From Xestospongia bergquistia (lineage: Eukaryota; Porifera; Demospongiae; Haplosclerida; Petrosiidae): DNA of 64,000 nt. The notes beneath the pieces are model-generated. The model was not told the origin of the DNA. It saw nothing but the letters and a program-made list of their open reading frames with translations, and did no database searches. How positions within the stretch are numbered: position 1 is the stretch's first letter; every line of letters starts with the position of its first letter. Where the stretch lies: the NCBI GenBank assembly GCA_963965975.1, contig OZ014423.1, forward strand, positions 5,048,301 through 5,112,300, given 5' to 3'. The position numbers were made by a program, and so were the translations under genes. Positions 10,679 through 24,800 of the stretch are shown one piece after another.

Positions 10679-13600
10679 ATGGTAATTGTTTTTTGATATC
10701 ACAATCATTTCTATATCTCATAATATCTGCCTTTAGGAAGGAGATACTCCATATAACAGAGAAGAACAATGGGTCTCCTTGCTCAGTTCTTTGAAAGATG
10801 ATTTAGCATTACAACTTTTTAAAGGCTACTTAAAGAAAATTGCTGCAGTCATTATATCATTAAAAGATGTTGGATTTTCACTAGAGAAGGAGACGGATGA
10901 CTTCTTGAGCCTACAATTAAAACTGCTTAAGGCATCCCAACTGCTATCTACTTTATACTATGATGAAGAGAGGAAGTCTCGTAAAGAACAACTGTTGGAA
11001 ATGATCAGCCGAAATCTGGCATTTATCGTCACAGTTGTCAACATGAATTGTTCATATATGGAAGTTAATGGTAAGTATGTCACTTCATTTTTAGGATGAG
11101 ATTATTGCCTTAGAGCTTCTTTCAAAGGTGCCTTATCTTATTTCAATTTTTCTACTCAACAAATATGACAAATAATTTAGAAATCTAAAGACTTTGCCAT
11201 TTTTGTTGAGTTAAATAAATCTCTGGAATTCACTTAAATTATCAAACAGGATCTTCGGCAGGTATGTACTTACAACAACCTGCTATATGCTTGATGAAGA
11301 TGGTTGAGGAATCATTAACAAAAGCTGTTGAGTTGAGGAAAATGCTTGTACAAAGACATCACTTTGAAGACATTATTAATCGCCTTAATTTTTTGTCAGT
11401 TGATCTCCTATCAGAGGTATGATTTCAAAAATGCTATATATATTTTTATAATACAGATATGTCTTATCCAGGAGAACGTTTTCACTCAAGCTATTTGGAT
11501 TAATTTCTTATTACTTTACAAATGTGTAGGAGAGGTATCAATCGGTATTTTACAAGAACCAGACCAATGTCTTAAAGCTATCTGTCCTTATACTCATGCT
11601 CCAGATATAGAGCTAAGAATAATTGCAAAAGCCTTGTTGATAGCACTTGCTGGGAGAATTCATAATCTGAGCTATTCAGATAGTTGTTCACTCAATGGAG
11701 ATGAAGCAAAGTATATAGCTACAATCCTTAATACTGATTTGCCTGTGCCTAATTCATTTCATGGTCTGACTTATCAAGATCTCTTCTCTGTGATTAAGGA
11801 TTTGATTGAATGCTCTGAGTCTATGAGTGAACTTTTAAAACAAGATTTACCCTCTGTCTTAGCTACGCAAATAGATATTTTACCAGAAAAAGAACAAAGT
11901 ATTGCTGCTGAGCTATTGTGTCTCCTGATGGATAACAGTAACAGACTGGACAAAAAATTTGATGATACAGGTAAATAGCTCTTGTTTGTTCCTTTGTCAT
12001 TAATTTGCGTTTATTATTATGATAGAATTAAAATGCCATGATGGTATGTCACCAAAAGAATATGTCATTGTGTTACCTCAAGAAAGTGATATAATCTTTG
12101 AATTATGTGACCTCCTTCTACAATACATTGTACGCACTGTTCTCCCATTGGATGGTCTTCCATATAAAGAAATTGGGGAGAAAGTAGATTCATGGCACAC
12201 AATAGCTGCTGCCATTTCTCTAATAGCAACACTCTATTCAGAATCAGATGATAGACTTCACAAAGAATTGATAAGGAACGTGGACATGACTGAAGGCTCT
12301 TGTGAGGCATTATACTTAGCTTTTTACACATCCTTTCTTTGCAATGGTAAGAAATTACCAAGTTTTATGTTCATCTTCTGTTGTTATTATCATATAGAGA
12401 ACAGTAGATCACTCATGGAATCAAAATTTCGTGATTTGTTACTGATTCTCATGATATGGACTGATGGCAGTCCTCTTCTAGCCTACAAAGTGGCCAAGTC
12501 AGGCCTACTTTTTTTCCCCACAACAGCCATTCATGTTGGACGTGTAATATATACATGGCAGAAGGTACAATTGCTAATTTTAAAATATTTAAATTCCATG
12601 ATTTTTATTTTTTTTCTTCATAGTCAACGGACAGACCTATTAAAATGGCTCTCAACACTTTGTTTAATTGTGCTCTCAATCCTGAAAACAGTCCTGCATT
12701 TCGTTATTGTGACATTATTCCTGAGTTGTTGCTATACACAAAATCGACCATCTTAGATTATGCTATTACTTCAAAATTTATTCTTTATTGTTTAACTCCG
12801 CAGTTGGACTACAATCATGTTTTAGCTTTAAAATTAGAAGAAAGAGAAGCAAAATATTGTATAACAACCTTATCAGAAGCAATGCAACCACCACAATTTT
12901 CAGCAGAAGGATTTTCTCTCTGTGAAATACTAGAGATCCTCAACAAACTGACCCATCCTACATTGACATATGAGAAACTTCAATCTGATGCTGCTAACAT
13001 ACAACAACGAAAACATCAAATATTAAGCGAATTTGAGCAGAAGATGAACAAAGCAAGAAATGAATTAAACGCTAACTTCAGTCTCTTGACTAATTTCAAA
13101 CTATTGAATCTTATTGAAAGTCTGTTGTTAATTTCTGACAATCGTGTACAGGAATTAAGTGTTGTTCTTCTGTGGAATGTTTTACACATAGAGACTGTTA
13201 AAGATGAAGTGCTGACACAGTTTCCTGGTATAATTGAAAATGTTTTGAAATTTTGTGATGGTTCTATGAGTCACACTGAACAAGTTGCTGATTGTGTCCT
13301 TTTACTTCTAGACCCTGAGGATTGTCAAGGTACATAGTTATGTGGTGCTGCCCAATGGTCCCCGTAATGTTAGTAGTATCTGTGGTGCCCAATCGGACAA
13401 CATGGGCACCATTAAGCACCATAGAAATAGTTCTATGGTGCCTATAGTGCTGACAGTATCTGTGGTGCCCAATAAGACGTTGTGGACACCATTAGGCACC
13501 ATAGAAATAGTTCTATGGTGCCCACAGTGCTGATAGTATCTGTGGTGTCCAATAAGACATTATGGACACCACAGATTCTCTGAATAGTAATTCCAGACAT

Positions 13601-16155
13601 TTTGTACAAAAAAATTTAACTATTTGTAACCTATCTTCTGTATCAAACATTTTTTCATATTTTGTGTAGATCATGTCAGACAATTAAAATATGCTCAGAT
13701 GTGTTACCACTACAGAAATTTTCAAGAAGCCACTTCTGTTTGTTCTAATATTATCAAAAGAATTAACAGTGAATCTGACCTCTATAGTCAATGTATTCTA
13801 TTACAAGGAAAGGCTACATTTTATGGATACCAGAGAAAAGTTCTCTATATGACAAAGAAAAGGCAATCTTTGGAAAGAGTTGAACAAAAATTGTTGGATG
13901 ATGAGTGCTTTGGTGATATTAAGGAGACAATAACTTTACTTGGGTGGGCTTTAGATCATTTTTGCCTTGATGAAGAAGGATCCAAGTTGTTGGATTGGGC
14001 AATGATGGACTGCCTTCATGAGACAAATCGATTAAACATATGCAGAAGATGTTTATTGTGTCGTCAAGTTCGAGACCTACGTCGAAGTCATCTCTGGCCA
14101 GAGTTTCTTATTAGAGATGCTACTGCTGATCTGGTAGGTGAGGAAGGAAAGATGGCCCAAGTACTTGTATTTGGTTTAGACAAGTATCGTATGAAGTCAG
14201 CAGGTGAATGCTGGTTTTGGATGTTGTGTCGTAAATGTGAAGAATCATTATCACAAAATGCAGAGATGGATTTTGCTCAAAAATTTCACCAAATACATCC
14301 TAAAGATGAAGAAGGAAAGGTGGTTTATTCAACTTGGTTTTTTCACTTTTGTTGTGCAGTCATTTTTCGCACATTGCCACATGCTAAATTCCCAATGCGT
14401 TTCAATGATGACGAAGTATATGCAACATTTGTGTACTGTCGAAAGCATCTACTTAGCCTTCCTGTTAAAATGGAAAAGCGAGACGTACCATTGACAAAAC
14501 TTGAGCTTTATCAACTTCAAGAATTTATGCAAGATACTGTTTGTAACAAATTAAAGCCTTTTTTCTTCGTTACTCCGTCAAAAATGGTATTTGAAATTGG
14601 AAATAGCGGTGATTATGTCAATCTTTCTGGTCTGATTTCCATAAACTGTTTAGCTGTTTTTCGTTTGATTGATGGCTATAGAGATCCATCTGGCCATGCG
14701 CACTTTTTTTCAGCAAGTTTTAGAAATTATCATATTCTTGTTTGTTTTACACCATCTTCACATTGTTCAATTCCAGATGCTTGTCTGGTACTTCCAAGAG
14801 ATGGAGTGTACCTTATACCTCACAATGCAAAAAAGATACAGAATATACCAAAAGGTCATTGGATGGTATTTCATCGTGGGATTTTACATGCTACTGATAC
14901 CGGAAGTGAAATTTCTAAGAATCTATCATCAAAAGCTGCTAAAAAGCTACTTAAAAGAAGAGAAAAAGATGAAGATACTGCTTCTCCACATTCTCAAACA
15001 GTTTTCTGGCCTTCATCCATTGCGAAAACTATGATGGAATATTTTGGTGACAAAGAGTTATTAACTGCACCATTTATACAAACTACAACAAAACCATTGA
15101 TAAGCTTAATGCCTCCTCAATTTGATATAGCAAATTCAGATTCCACTCTCAATCAATGCATTAATTTCCCTCAAGGTCATCAAGTCCTGCTACACAAAAT
15201 ATCAGAAGGTGAAAATGGTGCCATATTAACTGCCTTCCTCCTTGTATCTATTGATGCATTAAACTCATTTCCTTCTTGGCAACCGTACATTCTCATTTCT
15301 CATTCTAACCAAAATGCAATTTATCGTGATGCTGCTTTTATTGAAAGTGTAAATGGGAGAATCCGCTTTTCCAATTTTCTCCTTGAAAATGACTACTGTT
15401 CATCAGTACGAACGACTTATCAATTTATCTATGAATGGGCAAATGATCTGATTCAGTTATGTATGGTAGAAAAAGGAATATATAGTATACAAATTCTCAT
15501 ACAGTGGTTGAAAGTTCATAGTTTTACCAAATTGAAAGGTGATCTTCCCCCACTGGACTCAAAATGCTCTGAAGATGGGTGTTGGTATTGTAAAGATCGT
15601 TGTCACTATTGCCTGAAAGAGGCATGTGGTTGGAGTAAGGCCAAAACCAAGTTTACAGATGTTCCCTATAAATTTTGTAGTACAATGTGTTTAGGAATGT
15701 TTTGTTTGGCACCTAGTGCTCTGGAAAAGACCATATTTGTCACAGATCATAGAGAAGATGTGAAGCGTTCAAGTCCTTCTATTCTTGATATTTTACGTAT
15801 CAATCGGAATGATGGCGATAGTTACAACACTGTTGATTGTTTTAATTTATGTTTAGCTGATGGTTCTGAGGCTGATCTTTCCCCTGGACAGCTGTATGTT
15901 TTGTGGGTGTCACATCACGTCCATTCTAAACATTTCAAGTTCTTTGCAGTTCTAGTTACAGAAAAAGCTGAGATTTTGGGGTGTCTAACAACTGATTTGA
16001 TTAATATATCTAGTATGGCCACTGAAGAAATTATGATGAGTTATTTTCAACTTCAACCTGTCTTAGATAACATATTTAGTTTGGTGATGAAAGCATTGGG
16101 TTGTAAAGATCTTCCTGAATATATTGAGGCAGTACAATGCAAGGAAAGTAACTGA
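10679..16155 (+). CDS. Large helical-repeat protein with HNH-like SH..P / CxxC zinc module (unrecognised gene)
   Basis: My model has eight exons and about 1,560 residues: 10679-10681 (ATG only), 10737-11070, 11250-11416, 11472-11970, 12026-12346, 12398-12564, 12624-13329 and 13670-16155. All junctions keep frame. The first half (to about residue 750) is alpha-helical and armadillo/HEAT-like, with a coiled-coil stretch near 13000-13080. A TPR-like segment (YRNFQEATSVCSNII) opens the last, 2,486-nt exon. Next comes CRRCLLCRQVRDLRRSHLWP and, some 60 residues on, LCRKCEESLSQ, then YSTWFFHFCCAVIFRTL. This arrangement (CxxC, SHxxPxF, a later CxxCEE, then a Tyr-Trp-Phe helix) resembles bacterial HNH-type zinc proteins. 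A second Cys/His cluster lies at about 15575-15710 (GCWYCKDRCHYCLKEACGW and FCSTMC). I do not know the gene. The function is unknown; nucleic-acid binding or cleavage is a guess. It lies 197 bp before the SAMHD1-like fusion, on the same strand. Confidence 0.6.
13370..13580. repeat. 80-bp palindromic tandem repeat (about 2.5 copies)
   Basis: TGTGGTGCCC recurs at 13381 and 13461 and as TGTGGTGTCC at 13541, so the period is exactly 80 bp. Each full unit holds a perfect hairpin (GCACCATAGAA, loop ATAG, TTCTATGGTGC) near 13416-13441 and 13496-13521, nested in further GGTGCCC/GGGCACC inversions. It lies in the intron before the large last exon of the HNH-like gene. Confidence 0.9.
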
Positions 16156-16352
16156 ATAGTTTCTTTAACACTCTTTCAAAATGTTAATATTTTTTATTAG
16201 AATAATATTATTATAGGGTAGTTTTTGCAATAAAGTTTCTATAGGAACAACAAATACATGATTATTTCAACTTTCTAATGAATTTTTTTTTAAAGAATTA
16301 ATTTTATTAGCTGACAAAGCAAAGCACACCCACCAAGACAAATTAAACTGTC

Positions 16353-19300
16353 ATGGCCGTTGGTGAGTTATGATTTAATTGTTGTTCAACATCACTTCTC
16401 ATATAATTTTACAGATCATGATTATAGGAGTGGAAAGGTAATATATAATTTTCTTAGTTGATCTATTTATTTCCACAGACATTTGACGATTCTGTTCATG
16501 GACCTATAACATTTGCTGGAACATGTTGTCAATACACCTCATATTCAGAGACAGAGAAATATTAAACAATTAGGTGAAATAAAATATAGAATACAATTAT
16601 TTAGTTGAAACAATCAATGTTTTATGCACAGGAGGCCTCTATTGCGACTACATTGGAGCAGAAAGAAGTCGGTTTCAGCACAGCATTGGGTACATTAATT
16701 AATTGAACAAAATATGATTGCATTAGACCATACTTAGTAATATACATTAGTTTGATAACTGTAATATTAGGGATACATGCCATTAGAGGATGTCGATGCA
16801 CTTTAAGACTTGAATTTTTTGTAAGTACTATCTACTACATAGTGTGTGTCTATATAGATAGGTTAGATAATTGGTTGGAGTTTCTATAGGCCTCAATGTC
16901 CAAGTACTCTAATCATGAGTGCTATATATTGTGTAGCAGGAGTGCATGAGCGTGGCACTCATGTGCTCTTGCATGTGGAAGCCTCCAATGCATTGTCTAA
17001 ACAATTTTAGCCACAAGGCTAACCCAAGTTAGTCCAGTCATACCACAAGTCCAACCCAAATGATGACTTGCAGAATTCTGAAAACACAAGGAGTCTATTA
17101 AATGCACCTGATGTTTATAAACATCTGTTCTAATACATGTTTCTTTATTAACATCAAAGGAAATTATTTATAAAATTGTTTAAAACATTACATATACCAC
17201 AAATTATAAAATGTCATGTTAGATTTTATTTCTCTTTAATAGGATGTGTCATCTTTCTGGTATCTTTCTTAAAATATTGCAAAAGAGACAACCAAATCTA
17301 ACCATTACCAAACGAGATATACTCTGTATTCAGATAGCTGCACTCTGTCGTAACTTAGGTCAGGGTCCATTCTCACGATTGTTTGACCAACTTGTACTTC
17401 CCAAGATACGAGTCAGTACAAAACCATGGAAGGTATTAATGTATATATATTGTGAATGACTTCTAAGAAAAAACTCTAACCAGTTTCCAGATAGCAGTAT
17501 AACTATGTTTCGTCATTTACTACAAACTACAGATTTGAAAGCTAAATTTGAAGACTATGGTTTGATTTTAGATGAAGACATCCCATTTATTGAAGAGTTG
17601 ATCACAGGAAATCCAAACAAGGCAAGTTAAGTATAAATTCATGTCTTTACTTTTATAACAGGAAAGACCTGCAAACAAACAATTTCTTTATGAGGTGACA
17701 TAGTAGTACTATTCTCACTAATAATTTATTGCACTCAAATAGATTGTAACTAACACACAGTATGGTATCGATGTCAACAGGATGGATTATATTGCTAGAG
17801 ATTCTCAAGAACTACGCTACTTTCATAATTTTGATTGGAGGTCTAAATTAAAAGACAATTATGATCATTTTATAATTACCTCACCAGGCAATACATGAAT
17901 TCAGCTCGTGTTATTACTGCAGATGATGGATTTTCACACATATGTTGCAGAGAAGATGTGAGACAGATTTGCTCTAAATATATGAAGAGATTTATACTTT
18001 ATTTATTCAGGAAATCCATCTAGTTCATGAGTTTTATCGTGTCAGACACCACATGTTTTATAATTACTATCATCAGTGGAACTCAAGAGCTAATGAGAAT
18101 ATGTAATGTTGGCAAAAATTGAAATTTAATTTTTTTTTTTTCAGGATTGCTGAAGCACTTGTTAAGGCAAATGAGTATATAACTATACCAGGAGAACATG
18201 GGTTAGTTTAAAGTTACTGTTTAAGTGTTAGGCGTTAGATGTGGATCATACCAGATTACCAAGGAAACTATCAGAAGTTGTAGATGACATGTATGCCTTT
18301 ACAAAACTAACTGATAGTGTCATTGAGTTGATAAGAATGGATCCAAGGGAAGTAGAATTGAAAGAGGTATTATAAACAATATAATTATAGTTAATTACTT
18401 GTGTACATAGTCTAAGGAATTGTTAAATGCTATCGAAAAGAATTGGATTCATCAGTACATTGGATGTATAAAGAATCTTCCAGTACATATTGGCGCAACT
18501 CTAGCTGTAAGTTCAACAAAAATCAAAATGAATGGTGTTCTTGTGCGAATGTAGGAGAGTATATCTCAAAGACTTGTTGACATTTATGACAATATTGAAA
18601 CAGAAAGTGATGTTATTCTACAAGCCAACTTTATAGTGGTTGATGTGAGTTAAAGTTTGCTATTTTATTGACCAGTCACTAAAGAGACTGCTTTTCTAAT
18701 TATAGAAGATTCACTTTGATGTTGGTATTGAAGAACATGACCCAATGATAAAAATATGGGTCTATAGTACTGATAATTTGGATGTAGCCAAGCAACCAAA
18801 AAAAGTTGAGAAAATACTTATAAGTGTACTTATCAAGTTGTTTTATTTTGTAGGGATTGCCTACTCTTGAATATGCTGTGCCAAATATGTATCATTGGGT
18901 AGAGATAAGAATTTATAGTAGATGGGACAATACGTCAGAAGTTACTGAAGCAATCAAAAGGTTACTTGAAAGACTAAAACTGTTTAAAATCATATCAATT
19001 TTTTATATAGAGGATTTGAGCAATTTTTAAAAGTAGAGAACTATGATGTAAATGGTTCAATTCATGACACATTTGATTTTTTATTTTAAGCAGGGTTCTG
19101 TACATGATGTCACTTCCAAAAAAGGTAGTAATTTTTTCTTGATTTGCTAGCTAGTTAATGTTTGGTTTTTGTTTATACATCCTTTGTAGATATCACAAAA
19201 CCTACTGCTGCAGTTGGAAAGCAAGACAGAGGAGATGGTTTGTCATACCAACCTACAGCTATTAAATTAATGTTGGATAGAAAAAATTGTGAAATTGAGA

Positions 19301-21160
19301 GACTACACACTGTTGAAGAAGAACTAAAAACACAAGTTTTGGATTTGAAAGTAAAACTCCATAGTAAGGACAATGAAAGTGAAGAAGAAAAACGAAAAAG
19401 GAATACTGACATTGAGTCTCTAAAGAAAATATCCAAAGGAAAAGATGTAGAGATTGAGCACATAAAAAGAGACTTGGAAGAAAAGAAACAAGCAGTAATG
19501 AAATTACAAAAACAATTGAAAGTGCGATCTGCTGAAGAAACTTCACCTGCAAAATCTCTGAATACAGAGACACAGCAAAAATCTTCTAAGCAATCTTTGG
19601 AGTTGAATCTGTTTAATATCCTTTCTACTTTATTATTTATAGTGCTTATTTGCTGTTCACACATAAGCCTGGATAAATTTCCATGTAAGTTACACGAGAG
19701 TGATTTTAGTCATACTCATTTTTGCAGCTTTGTTACAAGGAGTTAGCGTTATAGCTTCAACTCAGTTAACAGTTCTAGGTGGTCAAGCTAATCAACTACA
19801 TTGGGAGGATTACGGCCTGATTATAAATATACCATCAAACGCACTTCCTAAAGGTTTTCTAGCCAAACTTGTAGTTAGAGTTAGTGTGTCTGGTCCATTC
19901 TCATATTCACATTCAAGTTCCTGGAAGCCTTCTAGTGCCATTTACTGGATATCCAGTTCCAGAGATTTTGAAGAGCCAGTGTTGATAAGTATGTGGCATA
20001 CAGTCAGAAACTTCCATAACAACTCACAGCTTCGTTTTGTATCATCCCAAAATGACCCAGTTAATGGAAAGTACTTACTTCACATTTTAGACGGAGGGTC
20101 ATTTGATAACACATATGGACATATTGCTGTGACTCACTTTTGTTCATTTCAAATTCAGTCTGGAAACCAGACAGAAGAAAGATATAAAGGATGTTTGTTT
20201 TATCGAATTCTAAGACATTCTTTAAAGTCACACCAACGGGACTACAGCTTTTTAATTTATAATGATGTGGTTTACTGGAGATAGTGAGAAACACATTAAG
20301 TTTGCAGCTGTTAACAAGTTAATGATTACTCTTTCTTTAGGTATTAGCTGAATATACTGGCTGGCATAAAGGACTTCAAGTTACTGTGGAATTTGACAAA
20401 GATTACATATCATTGGAGTTGAACGGAACTGTGAACATAAATGGTTGGTCTGTAAAATTAAAATATGACCCAGCAAAGGTAAAATAGTTTTGGATACAAC
20501 ATTTGTGTCATTGTCCTTGTCCACTGCAGTACAAGAAGAATGACTTATGTAGTTATTTTGCAAGCATTGTAAGCAACATGCAGTTTACAGTAAAACGAAC
20601 ACGTGAAGATGCTCCTAGTTATTTTAATACAATTCTTGCACTTAATGGATCAGAACGACCTAAAACAATTGATATTGAAATTGACGTTGGTAGGTAGTGT
20701 CACTGAAAATCATGTTTTTTTATAAAAATTATATATACATATAGACAATGAAGAAGCAACATTTAATCCAGGTGATTTATAGAAGATTTTATTACTTATC
20801 TTATTATATTATCTAATTTTTTCAGGAGCACTTGCTATTATTAATTCAATAAATGATTTACAACCTTGGTTGGAATACATAACAAGTTCACTAACTTATA
20901 GTATATGTTTAAATATGGGCAAGATTGAATCTGACATAGCTGAAAAAGAACAGAGCTTTGTCAAAGATAGAATTTACCAAATCACTGATGTTTGGCTAAA
21001 TAAGGACAACTCATGCACATGGAAATCCTTTGCTAAAGTATTTGTGTGTATGGGTAAATGCAAGGTTGCTAAGGAAATTAGCAAGGAGAAATTTATATAT
21101 TTTTTAAAACATGAAGACTCTGATGTGTTAAAAAAATGTCCAGACTTACCAACTGATTGA
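16353..21160 (+). CDS. SAMHD1-like HD pseudoenzyme fused to coiled coil, membrane segment, ZU5-like and Death-like domains
   Basis: Exons: 16353-16362, 16415-16437, 16479-16573, 16632-16689, 17243-17432, 17484-17621, 17662-17694, 17743-17840, 17888-17957, 18011-18102, 18145-18201, 18255-18366, 18411-18506, 18555-18644, 18706-18825 (end uncertain), 18854-18960, 19011-19047, 19094-19124, 19190-19684, 19728-20269, 20341-20478, 20530-20689, 20745-20771 and 20826-21160. The total is about 1,030 residues. Exons 3-17 follow human SAMHD1: IQRQRNIKQLG, RFQHSIG, KRDILCIQIAALC, GIDVNRMDYIARD, YAFTKLTD. The HD site CHDLGHGPFSH reads CRNLGQGPFSR, so the dNTPase should be dead. Exon 19 adds a charged coiled coil (about 100 residues) and a hydrophobic span (LSTLLFIVLICC). 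Exon 20 has a ZU5-like pattern (HWEDYGLIINIPSNALPKG, AIYWISSS). The last exon resembles a Death fold (YQITDVWLNK, CTWKSFAKVF). Exon 3 is frameshifted after HGPI; using the acceptor at 16547-16548 instead restores the frame. Intron 6 is GC-AG. A signalling or innate-immune adaptor is inferred. Confidence 0.72.
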
Positions 21161-21833: not shown

Positions 21834-24800
21834 TTAACTGTCTTTAACCAATCTGTATGCTCGATGTTTAGGACCATCATCACTTGTGCAAATTTCAAAG
21901 ACATAAGCTAAACAGAGAAGTGTTTCCAAAGTTTCTCTATTAGTGACCACCTAATCAAATAGAAGACTGTATAAGCAACCAGAAAATTAAAACAACGAAA
22001 ACTTTCAGTTCCTTATATATCTGTGCTTGTTTGACTACAGTTTAGTTTCAATTTCAAAATCTTGGGTAACTAATCTAATCACATACATAACATTTCTCTA
22101 CCTGCAAAACAGTGAAGTTCTCCAACACACTATTCATCATGTATTTCTCTGGAAGATGCTTCAATCGATGGATAAAAGAGACCATGTAGTCACACATAGG
22201 TGACCGATTAATCCGATACACAAATCGGCCATTATCAAATCTTGGATATTCAGTCTATAGTAAAAAAGTGGTACTGAATTAGAAGAGCATAGGTTTAGTA
22301 TATCCTCATGTCTATTCTCACATAGTATTGGCATGAGACTAATCAAAAGTGATAACTCACCTCTACTTTTTCCACTACTTGTTTCCCAAAAGAACATACT
22401 TTGGTAGAACAAGAAATTGTCATATTTTCTTGAGATTCGTACCTGTAAAGAAATATCAAATACTCACATGTGTAGTCACCTAACACAAGTGTACATTCCA
22501 ATAGCTATATAGCAACTTACTGGCTAGTAACTCCATAAAAAGCATTATTATCATCTAATAGTGGTGTGTTGATGTCTGCCCAAAATTTGACCAAGAAAAA
22601 ACGCTCTTGTGGACCTTTTTCAAAGAGCTCCTTAAGTCCACCATTTTTCTCAGGAAATTTGTCAGCTATATGCCTAATATCTACTGCCTAATAGGAAGAA
22701 CAAAGAGAGAAACTAAATTATCTGTTAGTGATGTGTAAATACCTCCATTGAAGGGTCGGTAAAATTTGTGGAGGGCTCAATATTAACAAACATATGTTTT
22801 TTACTCTGAAAGAGAACACAAGCAGACATGATACAGCCATACATTAATAAATAGAACTCACTGAGTCTGATTCTGTCTTGGATTGATCAACAAATGCATA
22901 AAATTCCACCATTCTCAATGGCTAGTGACACAGATAGTAATGATAGACAAAAATATGGTAAAGTCATACCAGATTGAGGGCTGGTACACTAGGTGGTTGA
23001 GTCTCAGAGGGTGTGGGATTAGCTATGACAAAAGGCAGTCCAATACGCTATGACAATGATATAAAATAAAAGAGAAGATCACTAACAATACATACTGGAG
23101 ATGTCGTGTTAAAATTAGGAGACATTGTTGGATTGCCAGTGGCTGCTGGAGAACTCACTGTAATAAAGGGACCAGCTGCTCCAGCTACTTGTAGCTAGAG
23201 GAAAATATGAACAGATACTGTAGAGACTATGAAAGACTTACCAGTCCAGCAGCAGCAGGATTAGTTACTATCTTCTGTTCCAACACAACAGGATTACTAC
23301 CTAGTCCACCTGTACAACATATAGATAATAAAATCAATACTCTATTCATTCAGCTTACCTGGTGATGCTAACATTGTATGCATGGGGACTGCATTGCCAG
23401 CTATACCGGGTGTACCAAACATGTTACCTCTGTTATGAATCGTTGAAGCAGAGACAATCTGAGCAGAGGACATACTCGAGATACCAGCCATGACTTTGTC
23501 TTTAGCAGCCTGGTCCTGAAATGGAAAAGACTATAAACAAGTTAGTTTGATGACGAAAGAAGTTTTCATTATAGTAATAAATTAAATACTCTACATTCAT
23601 TATTATGCAATTAAATCTCTATTCTATGTTGTAAGCACTAGAGTGTAGAATATCTCTGTACCTATTGTAACTTTTAGTGGGAGGATTACCAGTAAAGATA
23701 CCACAGTAGAGGTATTACTCATGTAGAAAACTTACAAGTAAACATATCTTTAATTGTTTAATGCAACTACTACTGTCAGTTACAATATCTAATTACAATT
23801 TGAACTAATAGGATGGAGTAAGTCACACATTCTTGGTATTCATAGTCACAGGTATGTACATCAGATTAATTCTTAATAAAAAAAGAATGCAATTGATTTA
23901 ATCAAAGTTAATTGTATATGGTCAATGTGTTGTGAACAACTAAATATAGTATGTTTTCAATACAGTATTCACCATTTTTGGCTATGTTTATTAGTTGTGG
24001 TATATGTATATCTTATTACCATACTTTTGTTATAGTCTGGGTATTCATTATCAAAATGCTTATTGTAGTTAGCTATGTCTGCAATGTGTCTGTGTGCTAT
24101 GGTTACTGTTTTGTTGCTGTTCAACAATGTGCAGTATGAGAATCTAATAGAAATTGGGTCAGTTTGTAAACTAAAGAATAGTCTACAGTAACTACAGTAG
24201 ATATATATTAACTTATTAATATCAGTGACCTAGAAATAACTAAACCTTGCACATCAGTACTAGCATTAAACTAGTACTTACTACATTGACCTAGGATAGT
24301 TACCATTAGTAAGCTCTAGATATCTGTACTTCCATAGCAACCTAGGATAGCTACCATTAGTAAGTTCTAGACTAGTGAATATTGGTACTTACCACAGTAA
24401 CCTAGGATAGCTACCATTAGCAAGAGTACTTACTTACCACAGTAACCTAAGATAGCTACCATTAGTAAGCTCTAAAAGCATTAGTACTTACCAACAGTGA
24501 AATAGGATAGTTACCATTAATTATTTTTAATGAGAATAGCTACAACAACATTAGTACATACCACAATGACCCAACTAAGCTTTACTAACTAGAACATACA
24601 CATAATCACATGTCATATTACACTCAAAGAAGTTTGTATCTACTGATTATGTGGTTGCTAGGAGAAATCATGACCTCTACCATGTCATGACAACTATGTA
24701 GTAAAGATGGTTTGGCTAGGAATTCCCATGAGTGGGTAGTACTACTCTGTACTACACAGTCGCTGCACTACTATGATAGTAAGGCTTCTGGGCCAGATGT

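Follow-up and report, generated by a model that had tools for sequence, protein, structure and literature searches.

Introduction

PIDD cuts itself after each of its ZU5 domains at HF/S, and CARD8 and NLRP1 cut at SF/S; when the buried Phe is replaced by His, cleavage is severely impaired (passages of PMC3210808). The fragments of NLRP1 and CARD8 remain associated; degradation of the N-terminal one releases the UPA-CARD part, which then signals (as set out in part of PMC7794386). For sponges, sections of Kaur et al. 2021 (PMC8195603) report 357 TRADD-N proteins in Amphimedon. Most types have Death-like domains at the N-terminus and C-termini that vary, and the HD domain is listed among the C-terminal partners as a potential enzymatic effector. 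Here we analyse a 64,000-nucleotide stretch of the genome of the sponge Xestospongia bergquistia (G000:C13:5048301-5112300, hereafter the window), together with 146 Mb of the same genome in 21 contigs. The window carries a gene that unites a SAMHD1-like HD domain with ZU5 and Death domains. From DNA sequence alone, we tentatively read its product as a Death-domain signalling protein, probably membrane-anchored, with a SAMHD1 pseudoenzyme as its N-terminal input; we hold this reading as a plausible one, short of probable, and it suggests a possible role in immune or cell-death signalling.

A SAMHD1-like HD, ZU5 and Death in one gene

The splice model, with GT/GC...AG introns, places 24 exons on the + strand (16353..21160). 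A single open frame of 1000 residues plus stop runs from the last base of exon 3 (exon 4 starts at 16632) to 21160, passing through exons 17 (19011-19047), 18 (19094-19124) and 19 (19190-19684). Along the gene stand, in order, a SAMHD1-like HD, a linker over exon 18, a charged coil, a hydrophobic span, a ZU5 domain, a middle region and a Death domain. Exons 1-17 (16353..19047, + strand) carry the HD, 426 residues of it from exon 4 onwards. The original prediction had put an HD, a coil, a hydrophobic span, ZU5 and Death together in one gene, and the splice model, an intact paralogue, matches in the PDB and family profiles all support this. Its further claim of one frame kept across the junctions holds from exon 4 to the stop, by way of exons 17-19, and fails within exon 3.

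When part of exon 16 was searched against the genome at the DNA level, a second copy appeared at C1:8234843, with 97 bases aligned at 87% identity. This paralogue (G000:C1:8.232-8.237 Mb; L003, L004) is intact, with 24 exons, the same order of parts and a 1089-residue open frame. Exon lengths are identical between the two genes in 17 of 24 cases, 15 of them consecutive (exons 4-18), and the frame is preserved at each junction; the short junction exons 17 (37 nucleotides) and 18 (31 nucleotides), at 19011..19124 on the + strand, agree with the paralogue in both length and phase. Over 990 aligned codons, synonymous divergence (dS) is 0.91 and the ratio of nonsynonymous to synonymous divergence (dN/dS) 0.22. 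By part, dN/dS is 0.17 in the HD, 0.41 in the stretch of the junction exons, 0.31 in the coil, 0.50 in the hydrophobic span, 0.25 in ZU5, 0.14 in the middle region (exons 21-23) and 0.25 in Death. The identical exon lengths and the low dN/dS in all parts indicate that the HD half, the ZU5-Death half and the link between them have long been retained in two genes.

Two separate genes or a chance join are thus unlikely, because the paralogue has the same parts, junction exons and order. A faulty model joining two neighbours, a SAMHD1-like gene and a coil-span-ZU5-Death gene, would fit with the sibling genes described below, which have the ZU5-Death chassis with no HD, and the one-gene model is built on DNA, not transcripts. 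With a paralogue at dS 0.91 sharing order, junction exon lengths and phases, and with the junction stretch itself at dN/dS 0.41, we consider such a joining very unlikely, and as far as DNA can answer the two-gene alternative raised earlier, the intact paralogue does so.

A third SAMHD1-like copy with Arg-Asn in its HD motif (C1:8.261-8.265 Mb; L007, L024, L029) is broken and in places very close to the paralogue at C1:8.233 Mb. The exon-16 search matched just two places in the genome, with no exon 16 at this copy, and a genome search for the C-terminal 399 residues, in which 104 of 187 candidates were scored, gave no ZU5-Death match there, so the third copy looks truncated.

The HD has lost its active-site residues

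SAMHD1 chains are the best solved-structure matches of the HD in both genes (E 1e-72 for the window, 4.6e-101 for the paralogue), with homology spanning 367-438 query residues; the E values are slightly raised by the Arg-Asn match, because the top PDB chains are engineered RN mutants. The HD assignment of the original prediction therefore stands through the SAMHD1 chains, with no Pfam HD match on the HD pieces. The gene model contains no SAM domain.

Aligned to human SAMHD1 and its numbering, both genes carry H206R, D207N, D311N, H210Q and H233F, and the general acid H215 is Arg in the window and Tyr in the paralogue. In the window, on the + strand, the Arg-Asn that replaces His206-Asp207 in the HD motif lies at 17349..17354, the Arg replacing His215 at 17376..17378 and the Asn replacing the metal ligand Asp311 at 17776..17778. 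H167 is the one metal ligand among H167, H206, D207 and D311 that window and paralogue both keep. For D311, H167, H210, H233 and the HD positions outside the allosteric set, the roles are those which we take these residues to have in SAMHD1. The pair H206R/D207N is the double change engineered into human SAMHD1 for structural work, so that metal binding is disrupted and the enzyme inactive, and H215A by itself leaves human SAMHD1 with no measurable activity (both in portions of PMC7311409). SAMHD1 is known as an enzyme; here the laboratory's dead-mutant pair occurs naturally and has been retained by two genes of the same genome.

The HD is almost surely catalytically inactive. An active dNTP (deoxynucleoside triphosphate) hydrolase tied to a death adaptor would accord with the HD residues that are kept (Q149, L150, R164, H167, D309, Y315, D319, R366 and Y374); with H206, D207, D311 and H215, as well as H210 and H233, all replaced, and with human H215A inactive by itself, we reject it as scarcely credible. 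A working hydrolase or canonical dNTP sensor is not supported, three of four metal ligands, the general acid and most of the second allosteric pocket being lost.

The two allosteric pockets fared differently. About half of the GTP pocket (AL1) is kept: K116, Q142 and R145 are present, R451 and K455 are replaced, and D137 is kept in the paralogue and is Asn in the window. Most of the dNTP pocket (AL2) is gone (R333Q, K354D, N358L, V156D), with R352 kept, which weakens the case for a canonical dNTP-gated tetramer; the roles of all these pocket residues are taken from part of PMC7045340. Some nucleotide binding by the HD is possible, part of the GTP pocket being kept. The HD might then bind GTP or another nucleotide in the first allosteric pocket without hydrolysis, assemble and so cluster Death domains. 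Such a model retains the nucleotide-sensing proposal of the original prediction and drops the catalysis. The retained K116, Q142, R145 and R352, and D137 in the paralogue, speak for such a nucleotide-gated oligomer, as does the human HD206RN protein, which is inactive yet tetramerises more than wild type (passages of PMC3624423). The replacement of R451 and K455 in AL1 and of R333, K354 and N358 in AL2 speaks against it, as does the Asn at D137 in the window, given that human D137A fails to tetramerise (same passages). Both pockets are, moreover, still more eroded in the related Amphimedon protein described below, and we regard this alternative as rather improbable.

Thirteen SAMHD1-like loci were compared, comprising 11 read in the genome plus the window gene and its paralogue. 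His206-Asp207 is present in 10 (one of them, on C14, in poor alignment) and Arg-Asn in 3, namely the window gene, the paralogue and the broken third copy.

A related dead HD in Amphimedon

The paralogue HD was searched twice against a protein database, and the two overlapping sets of 43 and 19 proteins contain many nameless rows and one protein named as sponge, P0057 (A. queenslandica LOC109586329, 1139 amino acids). Its C-terminal SAMHD1-like HD has Phe-Asn for His-Asp and Ser for D311, and both allosteric pockets are more eroded than in the window gene or paralogue. By eye, P0057 begins with a Death-like stretch; a region resembling its counterpart in Death/TRADD-N proteins, a coil and the HD follow. 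Pfam gave a weak HD match only (E 0.012), so we label these regions Death and TRADD-N from their resemblance to stretches of the sibling genes and from Kaur et al. A full-length search of the protein database returned no match at E<=1e-3 among 7997 scored candidates, a result that speaks for those candidates only.

The trees combined the sponge loci with 15 of 58 database proteins taken whole, the two halves of P0046 and the HD of P0057. A 31-row tree unites P0057, the window gene, the paralogue and the broken copy (100/97), and a tree without the two poor rows, C14 and the copy at C1:8263, still groups the window gene, paralogue and P0057 (99/99); the P0057 branch is long (1.79), and the tree program warns of unsure placement. 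On the simplest reading, the active site would have been lost once, and the dead HD would since have been carried in two different Death-domain arrangements. The dead SAMHD1 lineage, with a related dead domain of A. queenslandica in a protein that looks linked to Death, points to a non-catalytic signalling or guard role of the fold. Dead SAMHD1 copies are not unique to sponges, because P0046, a carp-family protein with two SAMHD1-like HDs, has Tyr-Asn for His-Asp in the second, an unrelated loss. Several of the carp-family relatives of this protein (P0044-P0051) also have beta/gamma-crystallin domains.

A search of the genome for P0057's own gene found none above 58% identity. Residues 1-480 of P0057 gave no match in window 12001-17300 and matched the siblings L044, L066 and L045. 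Loci resembling the Death/TRADD-N part of P0057 gave at least 50 matches in the genome, chiefly on contigs C3 and C4, with 41 of 872 candidates scored.

A ZU5-Death chassis shared with sibling genes

On the + strand, the ZU5 domain occupies 19733..20155, a conserved middle region of unrecognised fold takes UPA's place at 20156..20771, and exon 24 (20826..21160) holds the Death domain and stop. The genome search with the last 399 residues gave at least 107 matches among the candidates scored, mostly to the ZU5 part. The ZU5 alignment has 17 rows (window, paralogue and 15 of 22 loci, the near-copies L039, L040, L043, L044, L052, L055 and L058 being dropped), of which 12 match PF00791 at E<=1, the best at 4e-7; L064 reaches 29.5 bits against a cut-off of 21. 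The alignment of Death tails has 9 rows (the L040 tail dropped; first row one residue short, FPG for FNPG), and three match PF00531 at E<=1, the best at 1.2e-6, while two also match Ku_N, the best at 6e-4. Two Cys are invariant across the nine tails. A third alignment (A3) has 7 rows, with L039, L040 and L043 dropped.

Profiles built from siblings without the window gene and paralogue find the window gene in a target set of 2,002 sequences that includes 2,000 shuffles: at 9.6e-23 for ZU5 (11 rows of a second ZU5 subfamily, L064 among them), 2.8e-18 for the middle region and 1e-11 for Death (seven sibling tails). Against the PDB, the tail profile matched the death domains of FAS (E 0.003), THOC1 (0.012), ankyrins (0.2 and 0.4), RIPK1 (0.3) and PIDD (1.1 and 1.3); three NleB-type chains also matched (E 0.3-0.6).

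Eight sibling loci (L038-L045) have ZU5, middle region and Death tail in common with the window gene and, by eye and hydropathy, a hydrophobic segment upstream of ZU5. In the siblings whose front ends were read, these are of other kinds. The sibling at C2:5.17 Mb begins with a Death-like stretch (E 0.0015, 19.1 bits, cut-off 22.6) and a TRADD-N-like region, that at C6:6.80 Mb matches Death weakly (E 0.035), and that at C1:8.72 Mb has several Death-like stretches seen by eye and unrecognised by Pfam. With different modules in front of one shared chassis among the siblings, the HD seems to be one of several interchangeable inputs.

A candidate self-cutting site closes the ZU5 domain

At the end of the ZU5 domain, in the place of the PIDD-type autoproteolysis site, the alignment shows His-Phe-Cys in the window (20135..20143, + strand) and His-Phe-Ser in the paralogue. 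Phe is present in all 17 aligned copies and is followed by Ser (9) or Cys (8). Counting 22 loci plus the window gene and paralogue, F-[S/C] occurs in 24 of 24 copies; 20 of the 22 loci were identified by regular expression, and L045 (HFS) and L055 (NFC) were read by eye from open reading frames. An otherwise invariant position that allows just Ser or Cys has the look of a nucleophile, and the ZU5-Death protein may well cut itself. This puts a cleavage motif like that of PIDD and NLRP1 in an early animal lineage, within a large gene family, and makes the age of the mechanism testable.

Coiled coil and hydrophobic span

Exon 19 holds a coiled-coil stretch (19237..19570, + strand, ends approximate) whose heptad contrast was equalled by 2 of 200 shuffles; the control regions gave 117 of 200 (HD) and 81 of 200 (the part after the span). 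It is followed by a 19-residue hydrophobic span (19609..19665, + strand) with a Kyte-Doolittle mean of 2.25, and the paralogue has a span at the same place with a mean of 1.49. Going by hydropathy only, the protein is probably membrane-anchored. No signal peptide is obvious by eye, and the charges flanking the span do not decide its orientation.

A possible mechanism, and points that weigh against it

In the reading that we favour, the HD would have given up dNTP destruction and would serve as a binding or scaffold part, and the coil would pair molecules. ZU5 would cut itself at H-F/C (H-F/S in the paralogue), yielding an HD-coil-span fragment and a Death fragment that would stay non-covalently joined, as in PIDD, NLRP1 and CARD8. 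Binding or damage of the HD half would then free or cluster the Death domains, which would recruit death-fold partners.

Several observations weigh against this reading. The frame of the window copy is broken inside exon 3 (16479..16573, + strand), which has 95 nucleotides against 103 in the intact paralogue, and the break falls between the two SAMHD1-like halves of the exon: FDDSVHGPIT, at the end of the first part, and LEHVVNTPHIQRQRNIKQL, in the second, are both SAMHD1-like and stand in different frames. The break may impair the window allele, perhaps weakening the HD, and could reflect a private allele, incipient decay or an error in the assembly; the intact paralogue is a better candidate for the working gene. 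The window gene could accordingly be turning into a pseudogene, with its function in the paralogue, the architecture being real and this locus not working. The break and the already broken third copy at C1:8.263 Mb favour decay. On the other side, the 1000 residues contain no further stop or frame break, exon 1 joined directly to exon 4 would preserve the frame, the assembly may be in error, and dN/dS is 0.22 at dS 0.91, though a recent break would leave no trace there. We judge decay unlikely, if far from remote.

The domain assignments are also harder to make from the window gene by itself. Its ZU5 piece stays below the PF00791 cut-off (E 0.21, 12.3 bits against 21), its tail has no Pfam Death (PF00531) match, the profile of ZU5 rows found no ZU5 chain in the PDB, just weak unrelated ones, and the middle region matched no UPA family or structure. 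The ZU5 and Death domains of the original prediction are thus recovered by the family profiles and not by Pfam models applied to the window. As for the cutting site, His precedes Phe in 13 of the 17 aligned copies, not all, and the window has Cys rather than the Ser shown to cut in PIDD and CARD8.

Topology is the weakest point: the signalling reading would fall if the ZU5-Death end were lumenal. A span crossed once would place the HD and Death on opposite sides of the membrane. All 6 rows of the window's subfamily have an N-x-S sequon at ZU5 position 97 (window row) and none of the 11 rows of the other has one, which hints at a possibly lumenal ZU5. The contrast is one between two subfamilies only, because in the second (L050-L064) a hydropathy scan does not settle whether a span is present, L061 having a strong hydrophobic stretch. 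The protein might thus be of type II, with the ZU5-Death end lumenal or extracellular and the 'Death' domain an adhesion or recognition fold rather than a cytosolic recruiter. The sequon, the two invariant Cys of the tails and the lack of an obvious signal peptide would suit such a protein. Overall sequon counts are as in shuffles, and ZU5 and Death are cytosolic in known families; we think this arrangement quite improbable.

A more specific form of the signalling reading is an integrated decoy, in which the disarmed SAMHD1 would be an N-terminal bait on a self-cut ZU5-Death protein, with functional degradation. Any pathogen factor able to bind or destroy SAMHD1 would strike the bait too; once the N-terminal fragment was lost, the Death fragment would be free to signal, in parallel with NLRP1 and CARD8, which are activated by loss of their N-terminal half. 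If this were true, the sponge clade of dead SAMHD1 copies retained in Death-domain proteins would be a lasting trace of conflict. Membrane topology is the main weakness of the decoy, which we offer as a long shot.

Neighbouring sequence

Just upstream of the gene, an 841-amino-acid open frame on the + strand (window 13630-16155) has no Pfam match at E<=0.1. Overlapping open reading frames on both strands at ~13264-13615, with similar peptides repeated, suggest a tandem DNA repeat. On the - strand at ~22075-22690, exon-like open reading frames resemble by eye the C-terminal domain of TEAD/Scalloped transcription factors; no search was made.

Comparison with known systems

With SAMHD1 itself, the window gene shares a homologous HD and differs in having no SAM domain, metal site or general acid and in its fusion to coil, span, ZU5 and Death. 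The order of span, ZU5, further region and Death is the one that we take UNC5 receptors to have; the window gene, however, lacks a UNC5-type ectodomain and has an HD and coil instead. At the Phe place of the cleavage motif, UNC5b has Leu (a passage of PMC3210808).

Closer in its cutting site is the group of PIDD, NLRP1 and CARD8, in which, as here, ZU5 is followed by a further region and a death-fold domain, and the family of the window gene closes its ZU5 with F-[S/C], mostly preceded by His. The window gene differs in its Cys, in having no recognised UPA and in cleavage that is predicted from the motif. The front of these proteins consists of leucine-rich repeats or disordered parts, whereas that of the window gene is a SAMHD1-like HD and a hydrophobic span.

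The original prediction, which knew of no such architecture, was too strong in this respect, since Kaur et al. 2021 (PMC8195603, in the sections noted above) list HD with Amphimedon Death/TRADD-N proteins. We found no report of an HD ahead of a coil-span-ZU5-Death chassis in the open literature searched, a scope outside which most subscription journals fall. Those Amphimedon proteins and P0057 likewise combine Death-like domains with an HD in a sponge, and the HD of P0057 is dead and groups with that of the window. In the Amphimedon proteins the HD follows an N-terminal Death/TRADD-N unit, whereas in the window gene it is N-terminal and dead. The combination of HD and Death in Amphimedon has thus already been described; what would set the present gene apart is the reversed order and an HD that is not an enzyme.

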